Of a stretch of 32,290 nucleotides of DNA, positions 18,990-22,175 are shown piece after piece. The first letter of the stretch is position 1. The number at the start of each line of letters is the position of its first letter. The stretch is from Nitrospinota bacterium (lineage in GTDB: Bacteria > Nitrospinota_A > UBA7883 > JACRGQ01). The DNA is taken from assembly GCA_016217735.1 (NCBI GenBank), contig JACRGQ010000056.1, forward strand, positions 1-32,290. Direction: 5' to 3'. Both the position numbers and the translations under genes were made by a program. The notes under the pieces are model-generated. The model made no database searches, was not told the DNA's origin, and saw nothing but the letters and a program-made list of their open reading frames with translations.

Positions 18990-19022
18990 GCGGAGCAAAA
19001 TTCTTTTCGTTCCGCCTTTTTC
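18990..19022 (+). terminator. Intrinsic terminator after cbiO
   Basis: GCGGA (18990-18994) pairs with TCCGC (19011-19015), with an inner AAAA/TTTT pairing across a small internal loop, and CTTTTT follows. It lies in the convergent gap between cbiO and the squalene-synthase-like gene, 14 bases after the cbiO stop. Confidence 0.6.
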
Positions 19023-20043
19023 AGCGGGAGAGCTTTTGGCGGACGGCGCGGACCCCGCCATCGAACCACCGTTGCAGCGCCCAGTTGCACGGCGCCAGCA
19101 GAAACGAATTGCGCACGATGCGGGCCACGTCGGCTTTCGATATTTTCACCGTTTTGCCGCCGTTGAAGATGTCCTCGTTGTCCACGCACTTGGCGTAGCT
19201 TTCCACCGCCATGAACAGCGGAATGAGGCAGAACACGCGCACGCGGACGGCGGAGCGGGGGAGCCGCTTGGTGTATGCCAGCGCGTCTTCAAGGTAGGGG
19301 AGGGCGTCTTCCACAATGGTGTCCAGCACTTTCATCGCTTTTTGGCGGTTTTCCGGCAGGCAGAGCGTTTGGTACGACAATCCCTGTGCCGTCAGCAGAT
19401 CCAGCGGCCAAAAATTGCGGTTGTGCGGTATGTCATTCGCCACGTCGCGCAGGATGTTCACCTTCTGCAATGCGATGCCGAAATTTTTGGCAAGTTCCAT
19501 GAACTGTTCGTCCGGCATTTCCGGAATTTGGCCGGCGAGGTGGAAAAGGCGCGAGTTGAGGTAGCCGACGATGCCCGCCACATAGTAGCAGTACTCTTCC
19601 TGCACTTTGAGGGAGTCGATGGTTTTTCCCTGGAATTTCAACATCCCATCCGCCATCTCGCGCGCGCAGTCGAGGATGGCCGTCTTTTCCCCGGCGGCAA
19701 AACCGTGAAAAACCTCCAGCAGGCTTTGCAGGTTTTCCAGCAAAACTTTTTCGTAGCTGTAATCAATGTTCGCCAGCAGGTAATCGCGGAGCGCCGCCGC
19801 CTTCTGGCGGTTCACGGGCGGCGGGGCGGCCAGCAGTTCGAGAAACTGGCCGAACGCCATCCGTTTGGTTTCCAGCGGCGCGGCGGAATCCTCGATGGTG
19901 TCGATCAGCCGCAGGATGAGGTACGCGGCCATCATCCGTTCGTCCAGCCCCTTGGGGAGCTTTTGGATGCAGAGCGCGAAACTGCGGGAAACCGCCGGGA
20001 GGATATCCCAGCATATCTGTTCGTGGTTGGCCGATTTGCGCAT
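19021..20043 (-). CDS. Squalene/phytoene synthase family protein, squalene-synthase-like
   Basis: A 340-residue trans-isoprenyl diphosphate synthase. SRSFALCI at residues 19-26 is followed by the first aspartate motif D48-x3-D52 (IDTIED), then YCYYVAGIVGYLNSRLF, and the second motif D200-x3-D204 within QKVNILRDVANDI. This layout (YC.YVAG.VG and QK.N..RD...D) resembles squalene synthases more than phytoene synthases. It would join two farnesyl diphosphates head to head via presqualene diphosphate. The frame extends to 20211, but similarity begins at ATG 20043. The ribosome site is weak. No hopanoid cyclase or carotenoid desaturase is nearby. Confidence 0.85.
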   Translation of the reverse strand: MRKSANHEQICWDILPAVSRSFALCIQKLPKGLDERMMAAYLILRLIDTIEDSAAPLETKRMAFGQFLELLAAPPPVNRQKAAALRDYLLANIDYSYEKVLLENLQSLLEVFHGFAAGEKTAILDCAREMADGMLKFQGKTIDSLKVQEEYCYYVAGIVGYLNSRLFHLAGQIPEMPDEQFMELAKNFGIALQKVNILRDVANDIPHNRNFWPLDLLTAQGLSYQTLCLPENRQKAMKVLDTIVEDALPYLEDALAYTKRLPRSAVRVRVFCLIPLFMAVESYAKCVDNEDIFNGGKTVKISKADVARIVRNSFLLAPCNWALQRWFDGGVRAVRQKLSR

Positions 20044-20132
20044 ATCGTGCGCATTATACCGGATTTGAAACGGAAGTCGTCCTGGCAACGCCCCTCCTGC
20101 CGCGCGGGAGGGGCGGGGATGATTTTTCCGGC

Positions 20133-20300
20133 TCAGGCGATGCCGACGCCGCTCATCCACCGGTAGTACGAGTGCGAAGCGTGAAACTGGAACAGGGGGT
20201 TGTATTTGCATACCTGCTTACAGTAGTGCTCGCCGCCAAAAAGGCTCGTCCGCACGTTAGCGCACTTCTTGCAAAATTGGGGCATCTGCTCTTTTCTCAT
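20133..20300 (-). CDS. Cys-rich microprotein 1 (55 residues)
   Basis: A short leftward frame with an ATG at 20300, preceded by GGGAG 8 bases upstream, and a stop at 20133-20135. The 55 residues carry C-x2-C (10, 13), Y-C (26-27), a further Cys31, and a Y-Y-R-W motif at 45-48. The spaced CxxC and CxxxC pairs look like a small zinc or iron site. The neighbouring 44-residue protein shares the layout C-x2-C, then YC, then Y-[WY]-R-W, which is unlikely by chance and supports both being real. They are separated by 6 bases. The family is not recognised, and there is no signal peptide or membrane segment. Confidence 0.72.
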   Translation of the reverse strand: MRKEQMPQFCKKCANVRTSLFGGEHYCKQVCKYNPLFQFHASHSYYRWMSGVGIA

Positions 20301-20306
20301 GATTGC

Positions 20307-20441
20307 TCACTCCCATCTCCAGTATTCAAGGTTGTTATTTACCAGACCGTACAGGCAGTAGCGCCTGTTCAGATTTTCCCAGCGGTATTCACAGGCTTGG
20401 CAGTGTCTGCCGCCGGGCGTTTTAGCCTTATTCGACATCAT
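20307..20441 (-). CDS. Cys-rich microprotein 2 (44 residues)
   Basis: A leftward frame starting at ATG 20441 behind AAGGAG at ideal spacing; an adjacent ATG at 20438 is equivalent. It encodes 44 residues with H-C-x2-C (13-17), Y-C (28-29) and a terminal Y-W-R-W (40-43), plus an earlier YRW at 19-21. It shares its motif order with microprotein 1 downstream and is presumably its paralogue and operon partner. About 45 bases upstream of the start lies the predicted transcription start of a near-consensus sigma-54 promoter. Function unknown; metal binding is inferred only from the cysteines. Confidence 0.7.
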   Translation of the reverse strand: MMSNKAKTPGGRHCQACEYRWENLNRRYCLYGLVNNNLEYWRWE

Positions 20442-20495
20442 CTGCTTCTCCTTATCATTTGTTATGTAATGTTTGCATCTACATCATATGTATAA

Positions 20496-20511
20496 AGCAT
20501 ATCCTGTGCCA
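20496..20511 (-). promoter_or_regulatory. Sigma-54 (-24/-12) promoter for the microprotein pair
   Basis: Read leftward from 20511 the sequence is TGGCAC-AGGAT-ATGCT. Consensus is TGGCAC-N5-TTGCW, so only one position of the defined elements differs and the invariant GG and GC are exactly 12 bases apart. The predicted start of transcription is near 20485, giving a leader of about 44 bases before ATG 20441. A sigma-54 activator gene stands divergently at 20775. Confidence 0.72.
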
Positions 20512-20552
20512 AAAATTTTATCAAAAGAATCAATAACATATCATAAATGCTT

Positions 20553-20610
20553 CTACAAAAGTGTATTTGTAAGTGTAGGCCATGTCTTTGTGTGTATAAA
20601 AATGTACACA
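20553..20610. promoter_or_regulatory. Candidate upstream activating sequences for the sigma-54 activator
   Basis: Two imperfect inverted repeats lie about 70-125 bases upstream of the predicted microprotein transcription start. TGTGTATA-AAAA-TGTACACA (20591-20610) has 7 of 8 arm positions paired, and CTACA/TGTAG arms occur at 20553-20557 and 20574-20578. GTGTA recurs at 20561, 20573 and 20592. The distance is typical of enhancer sites for sigma-54 activators. The rest of the 333-base gap (20442-20774) is AT-rich and holds only this, the sigma-54 site and the activator's own promoter. Confidence 0.45.
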
Positions 20611-20693
20611 TGCAAATAGGATAGCTGGTTGTGGTGACTATCGGTAAAATTGACGTAAGTAAAAAAAATCCCCAAAACAAAAATTTTATTTGC

Positions 20694-20722
20694 TTGAAAT
20701 AGGATTGATTATGGATTAAATT
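20694..20722 (+). promoter_or_regulatory. Putative sigma-70 promoter of the sigma-54 activator gene
   Basis: TTGAAA (20694-20699) and TAAATT (20717-20722) are 17 bases apart, about 50 bases before the ATG at 20775. A GGGAG ribosome site lies about 10 bases before that ATG. Each hexamer has two mismatches at most. Confidence 0.4.
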
Positions 20723-20774
20723 AGCCATAATTAGCTGAAATTATAACTTACGGGAGATAGGGAGCGTCAAAATT

Positions 20775-22175
20775 ATGAACGAACCTGATAATATCCTGGA
20801 TAATTTTACTGATCCTGATTTTGTACCGACTCCGATTATGCAGCAAGCTGAGCGGGTTGATCACGATGCCGCGGTCAACGCGGAAGAGATGGATGAGGAG
20901 ATAAGCGTCTTGTCCTACAATTCGATATTTATGGCTCCCCAACCGGACGAGCGGGAGAAACTGTTGGCCGCAAACCTGGCCGAGTTGCGTGCCGCCGAGG
21001 CGTTCCTTGAAGAAGCCGGCGAGGCGGCGGCGGAAGAAGCCTCCGGGCCGGAGCCGATGACCATCGAGGAGAAACTCCAAGAGCGCAAAGAGCAGGCCAT
21101 CGGCCACGTCACAGGCCGGGCCGCAACGCAGGGGAACGGCAAGGGGTTTGCCCACATTATCGGCAATTCAAAACGCATCCGTGAAATTTTCGGCACCGTC
21201 GAGAAGCTGGCCGATACCGACAGCACCGTGCTGGTGCTGGGGGAAAGCGGCACCGGCAAGGAACTCTTCGCCCGGTCGGTGCATATGCATTCGCCGCGGC
21301 GCAACAAAAACTTCGTGGTGGTGAATTGCGGCGCGATCCCCGAAGACCTGCTGGAGAGCGAGCTGTTCGGCCACGAGAAGGGGAGCTTCACCGGCGCCAT
21401 CCGCACCCGCGTGGGCAAATTCGAGATGGCGCACGAGGGAACGATATTCCTCGATGAAATCGGCGACATGAGTCCGGCCTTGCAGGTGAAGCTGCTGCGC
21501 ATCCTGCAGCAGCAGGAGTTCGTGCGGGTCGGCAGCAATCAGGTGATACGCACCAACGTGCGGGTGGTCGCCGCCACCAACATCGACCTTGAAAAGGCGA
21601 TCAAGGAAAAACGGTTCCGCGAGGATCTCTATTACCGCCTGAATGTCATTCCGATCAAACTGCCGCCGCTGCGCGCCCGCAAGGACGACATTGCGCTGTT
21701 GGTGGACCACTTCATCAAGCGGTTCAACAGGAGCAGGAACCGCGGCATCGCCGGCGTTACCCCGGCGGCGATGAAGCTGCTGCTGGAATACGAGTGGCCC
21801 GGCAACGTGCGCGAGCTGGAGAACATCTGCGAGCGGATGGTGGTGATCAAGGGGGAGGGGATGATCGACGTGGAGGACCTCCCGTACCAGTTCATCAGCG
21901 ACGCCAACCAGGACGAGCAGCTTTACACCGACATGCTGCTGGTCGGCGCGCAGGAGGCCGATCTGGAGCCGCAGGCCGCCGCGCCCGCCGCCGCGACGAT
22001 GGATATTCCCGAAACCGGCATCAGCCTCAAAGAGGTGGTGGAAGAATACGAGATGGGGCTTATCATGCAGGCGCTGGAAAAGACCAACTGGGTGAAGAAC
22101 AAGGCGGCCGCCATGCTGGGGCTTAACCGCACCACGCTCGTCGAGAAGCTCAAAAAGCGCGGCATCACCCGCTGA
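20775..22175 (+). CDS. Sigma-54-dependent enhancer-binding protein without receiver domain
   Basis: A 466-residue activator. The first 120 or so residues are acidic and Ala/Glu-rich with no CheY-like, GAF or PAS pattern. A complete AAA+ domain follows: Walker A GESGTGKE (156-163), the sigma-54-contacting GSFTGA loop (203-208), Walker [10 protein letters not shown], and an arginine-finger region [14 protein letters not shown]. The C-terminus is a Fis-type helix-turn-helix ([23 protein letters not shown]). The HTH style resembles FleQ/FlrA-type regulators (recollection only). The signal input is unclear. Divergent sigma-54-driven microproteins with repeats between make that pair its best candidate target (inference). 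Confidence 0.93.

Follow-up and report, generated by a model that had tools for sequence, protein, structure and literature searches.

What does a bacterium switch on when a sigma-54 activator with no recognised sensor domain stands divergently next to an operon of two very small genes? The question is raised by a locus in the window, that is, the whole 32,290-nucleotide stretch analysed here, which is contig 56 of a groundwater metagenome-assembled genome of Nitrospinota (2.53 Mb, 95% complete) from a lineage of groundwater relatives of marine nitrite-oxidising bacteria. A reading made from the sequence only had described two small leftward open reading frames (ORFs) of 55 and 44 codons behind a sigma-54 box, next to a divergent sigma-54 activator, and all of these are present at the locus. 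The key features are the following.

p55 gene, 20133..20300, minus strand: 55-residue Cys4 microprotein (C10-x2-C13-x13-C27-x3-C31, KYNP motif), the core gene of the operon; an ORF with relatives in 6 further genomes, a proline and four cysteines invariant in 11 relatives, and dN/dS of 0.22-0.38
p44 gene, 20307..20441, minus strand: 44-residue genus-specific small protein, gene 1 of the operon, with non-conserved Cys and a weak coding signal
AAACATTACA-type element, 20465..20474, minus strand: conserved 5' UTR element, AAACATTACA in three genus members and AAACGTTACG in G008
sigma-54 -24/-12 promoter TTGGCACAGGATATGC, 20497..20512, minus strand: predicted start near 20485, box kept at 7/7 soluble-p55 loci
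candidate enhancer site TGTACATTTTTATACACAC, 20590..20608, minus strand: ~80-90 bp upstream of the sigma-54 box, aligned in genus mates
sigma-54-dependent activator gene, 20775..22175, plus strand: AAA+ domain with GSFTGA loop and Fis-type helix-turn-helix; N-terminal ~125 residues acidic, without a recognised sensor domain
squalene/phytoene-synthase-family gene (SQS), 19021..20046, minus strand: downstream of p55, with its own TATAAT just upstream

Conservation of p55

The comparative evidence indicates that p55 is a real, conserved gene. Six of the 10 other family genomes contain relatives (profile E-values from 1.5e-27 to 1.1e-21, with recovery also by a single-protein search), bringing the total to 7 of 11 with the window genome counted, and searches of the phylum detect p55 in none of its other families. 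Between the p55 genes of the three genus members in which it occurs, dN/dS is 0.22-0.38, which points to purifying selection; when the same substitutions are placed at random, a stop appears in 48-86% of cases. Across 11 sequences of the family, including one phage homolog, a single proline and four cysteines never vary. In the window protein, the cysteines are spaced C-x2-C-x13-C-x3-C, and in the relatives, KYNP and SFY usually follow. Conservation extends beyond the cysteines to the LPxF, KYNP and SFY motifs, and F10, N35 and S45 (in the numbering of the G008 protein) are nearly invariant.

The p55 sequence has no Pfam family above the cut-off and matches no family in NCBIfam, PHROG, PADLOC or the PDB; the Rfam search gave no match either. 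p55 founds a family, as yet without a name, of Cys4 microproteins with a single domain, and the libraries searched here contain no match to it.

p44 and the question of paralogy

The suggestion that the operon encodes two paralogous Cys-rich microproteins fails. Comparison of the p44 and p55 families with hhalign yields a probability of 0.2%, blastp produces no alignment between the two proteins, and the Cys residues of p44 are not conserved; on these results, p44 does not count as a paralog of p55. The layout that the two products were thought to share does not hold for either protein: the C-x2-C of p44 is lost in both relatives (C..Y in G003 and Y..F in G001), and in p55, the Y-[WY]-R-W motif is replaced by CFYRK in both genus mates. 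Of the proposal that the pair is probably metal-binding, the part concerning p55, with its four invariant Cys, stands, and the part concerning p44 is unsupported.

Of the two genes, p44 is the weaker. It is confined to three genus members, where YRWENL and RWE are retained in the relatives, and it shows a modest coding signal, with dN/dS at 0.36-0.59 and a randomisation P of 0.02-0.11 per pair. In G008, an unrelated 44-codon ORF (L044:7953-8087) occupies the place of p44 and overlaps the p55 start by ATGA, a possible leader-ORF replacement, and in G010 and G009, there is no ORF of comparable size at this position; hence p55 is independent of p44. The favored explanation treats the latter as a lineage-specific accessory or leader ORF. 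The restriction of p44 to one genus and its weak coding signal would also suit the view that these are ordinary conserved hypothetical genes, with p44 untranslated or a non-functional remnant and the promoter match incidental. For p55, its conservation and the sigma-54 box at 7/7 loci argue strongly against this view, which we consider barely credible.

The promoter and the intergenic region

In TTGGCACAGGATATGC (20512-20497, minus strand), the GG and GC elements are 10 nt apart. A consensus box, TGGCA[CT]-N5-[TG]GC, precedes each of the 7 soluble-p55 operons identified, including those of G010 and G009, where no activator adjoins p55. Combined with a ribosome-binding site in a strict pattern, the box occurs just 3 times in the 2.53-Mb window genome, and across 24 genomes of the phylum, this pattern is far commoner than its reversed control. 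RpoN is encoded elsewhere in the window genome. The claim of a sigma-54 promoter with exact GG/GC spacing is borne out by the conserved box and by the presence of RpoN.

The candidate enhancer TGTACATTTTTATACACAC has its sole exact match in the genome at the p55 locus, with inexact matches at the background level. It may be the binding site of the activator, and the lack of another exact match in the genome fits an activator with nearly a single target.

Two further observations concern the flanks of the operon. Directly ahead of the activator gene, a stretch of ~90 bp (20680-20774) is 82-87% conserved, compared with 53-56% in the middle of the intergenic region, and contains an invariant TTTGACGC, as read on the minus strand, close to the activator start and TTTGCTTGAA upstream; this segment is possibly a promoter, an autoregulatory element or a 5'-UTR element. 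On the other side, the SQS-family gene is probably outside the p44-p55 operon because it has its own TATAAT just upstream, which is conserved in G000, G003, G001, G008 and G010. In these five genomes, the TATAAT (20047-20070 in the window) lies just a few bases before the ATG, suggesting that the SQS transcript is leaderless or has a very short leader.

The activator and its linkage to p55

The gene at 20775 encodes the divergent Fis-type sigma-54 activator that the sequence-only reading had placed there, with an intact Sigma54_activat AAA+ domain (5.7e-73), an intact HTH_8 (Fis-type) domain and GSFTGA in the translation. An N-terminal sensor or receiver domain is usual in bacterial enhancer-binding proteins (bEBPs), although not universal. 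No such domain is recognised by Pfam or NCBIfam in the first ~125 residues of this activator, and this part of the protein shows no alignment between genera. Against the PspF model TIGR02974, the protein scores 305.8 bits, under the cut-off of 443.55. Judging from this domain composition, the activator is a sensor-less bEBP that is PspF-like by arrangement, not by membership.

Orthologs of the activator are present in 8 genomes of the family, 6 of which also have p55, and the activator is divergent from p55 in G000, G001, G003, G008 and G004. Synteny within the genus comprises the activator, p44, p55 and SQS, and G008 has the same gene order without a p44 homolog. In G010, p55 stands beside SQS alone, away from the activator; in G009, p55 is present with no activator detected; and in G005 and G006, the activator is kept with no p55 found. 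The gene neighborhoods therefore point to a link between the activator and p55 that is strong but not exclusive: the activator occurs without p55 in two genomes, and p55 occurs apart from the activator in two others. The description of the activator as dedicated to this operon is accordingly right only in part. The sole exact match of TGTACATTTTTATACACAC at this locus is in its favor, whereas the genomes that have one partner without the other, or apart from it, count against it; since G005 and G006 keep it without p55, the activator may have other targets.

G004 and G006 share a longer stretch of synteny around the activator, with neither p55 nor the box in the G006 gap. At L078:6032-6439, G006 keeps the G004-type activator synteny without the p55 pair or a sigma-54 box, marking a site of gain or loss. 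The MMPL-LolA-outer-membrane genes of this region were rejected as a functional hint, given that this synteny is common to G004 and G006 and not kept elsewhere.

Membrane-anchored, tandem and phage forms

The p55 domain is also found behind an N-terminal hydrophobic segment, with no evident sigma-54 box, in G004 (C49) and G010 (C100), at L045:8315-8602 and L047:9671-9943, respectively. One of these membrane-anchored copies adjoins a gene for a SpoIIE-type phosphatase, and the other has a cNMP-binding/metallo-beta-lactamase-fold gene and a gene for outer-membrane efflux in its vicinity. G004 additionally encodes tandem p55 paralogs after one sigma-54 box (L048:9427-9757); these two, in contrast to p44 and p55, are genuine paralogs.

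A clear phage homolog of 58 residues, with 44% identity to the G008 p55, is encoded at ~9.3 kb of the 236-kb IMG/VR contig IMGVR_UViG_3300022697_000186 (L087:2935-3111), in a tRNA-rich region beside other small Cys-rich ORFs. From its gene content (many tRNAs, homing endonucleases, an SbcC-like nuclease, a helicase and a phage-type nicotinamide phosphoribosyltransferase, at 26-31% GC), this contig looks like a jumbo phage. Five of the 7 scans of viral collections retrieved it, and none yielded a second phage homolog. The other IMG/VR hits to the DNA pattern failed the profile or were short chance fragments, and no p55 homolog was found among the INPHARED phages. A plasmid search gave one hit, within a 397-residue protein of Pseudomonas CP136011, which was judged to be due to chance, and 385 genomes, mostly from outside the phylum, gave just a 28-residue fragment from G250, which was rejected as a homolog.

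Fold and metal binding

The p55 family displays the four invariant Cys and the knuckle spacing of a generic Cys4 zinc finger, and p55 would be expected to bind zinc, although sequence alone cannot tell zinc from another metal or a disulfide. The models built with AlphaFold2 are too weak (pLDDT 53 and 51) to establish the fold, although both put a possible short hairpin between the Cys pairs. The number of Cys (just four), their nearly fixed spacing, the conservation of residues other than Cys and the absence of a leader/core layout make a structural zinc finger more likely than a metal buffer or a precursor peptide. The conserved LPxF, KYNP and SFY motifs argue for a specific surface, not a metal sponge.

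A sigma-54 switch for a putative regulatory adaptor

The gene reality of p55, its conservation, its four invariant Cys, its promoter and its gene neighborhood have been established computationally. The explanation that we favor, at roughly even odds (about 0.5), is that a sensor-less activator drives a sigma-54 promoter for a Cys4 zinc-finger microprotein that acts as a regulatory adaptor. Under this scenario, some condition, presumably a stress, would free or raise the activator, which would bind an enhancer within the 330 bp between the divergent genes, putatively TGTACATTTTTATACACAC, and fire the promoter, so that p44-p55 is transcribed and p55 is turned on. The functional product of the operon would be p55, folding as a small zinc knuckle plus beta-hairpin round a single structural zinc and acting as a protein-binding adaptor or regulator. 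The membrane-anchored copies carry the same p55 domain, which suggests that the partner of this domain can be met at the membrane.

Several known systems offer rival readings of the same locus. PspF is an activator without a regulatory domain that is restrained in trans by PspA (PMC3128695), so that p55 becomes a candidate feedback partner: zinc-loaded p55 would bind the AAA+ activator and set or shut off its output. The likeness is one of arrangement, namely, a sensor-less AAA+ sigma-54 activator with a divergent target operon encoding a small protein that is a possible modulator, and p55 and the activator mostly co-occur (6/8 activator genomes). However, the activator is below the PspF cut-off, p55 is unrelated to PspA, and feedback is in this case a proposal; moreover, p55 occurs in G009 with no activator detected, and the membrane-anchored and phage copies have no adjoining activator. 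Feedback is kept as a rival because two genomes (G005 and G006) have the activator without p55, and we regard it as doubtful. Lower still in our estimate stands the idea that metal stress induces p55 to serve as a metal buffer or metallochaperone, for which the zinc-responsive ZraR offers a precedent: this activator depends on sigma-54 and targets zraSR and zraP (PMC7657598). As in that system, a sigma-54 activator would control a small metal-associated protein, and p55 has four invariant Cys. Yet these suffice for one site, with near-rigid spacing and conserved non-Cys residues around it; the conserved neighborhood includes neither a sensor kinase nor a metal exporter; and ZraR, a response regulator, is paired with a sensor kinase, whereas the window activator has neither kinase nor receiver domain. 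ZraP is a periplasmic chaperone; p55 has no evident signal peptide and does not resemble it. The metal-buffer reading is accordingly improbable.

A comparably long shot is that p55, as a small protein, inhibits an enzyme acting on nucleic acids, such as gyrase or RNA polymerase, or serves as its adaptor, and is used by the host and borne by a phage as well. The gyrase inhibitor YacG (DUF329) is a small one-domain zinc finger whose Cys spacing is similar to the C-x2-C-x13-C-x3-C of p55. However, the YacG profile (PF03884) matches none of the 9 p55 members tested, p55 lacks the rest of the YacG sequence, no YacG is found in 24 genomes of the phylum, and there is no PDB match. TraR and lambda Orf73 are small C4 proteins found in bacteria and phages (PMC9239242), and the jumbo-phage homolog gives p55 a similar distribution, but, compared with these TraR/DksA-type microproteins of plasmids and phages, p55 has no Pfam match and a different Cys spacing. 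The membrane-anchored copies also suit a cytosolic DNA enzyme less well. The stand-alone one-domain zinc-finger micro-proteins of Haloferax, implicated in stress adaptation (PMC6562870), are alike in kind, but they are archaeal, belong to other families and are not under sigma-54 control.

The regulatory-adaptor explanation can be extended into a bolder one. The p55 proteins could form a new adaptor family, zinc fingers induced through sigma-54 and passed between Nitrospinota and jumbo phages, in which the host would use the sensor-less, nearly single-target switch as a stress or phage response, the phage copy would hijack the same partner, and the membrane versions would place this partner at the inner membrane. 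We consider this extension unlikely as a whole.

Implications

The novelty here is a family without a match in the searched libraries, within a known kind of regulation. p55 represents a conserved family in an uncultured lineage that is tied to a class of promoters needing an activator to fire, and it connects a microprotein of bacteria to a gene of a jumbo phage. Should the trigger and the partner be found, it would become clear what such a sensor-less sigma-54 switch governs in Nitrospinota of the subsurface.
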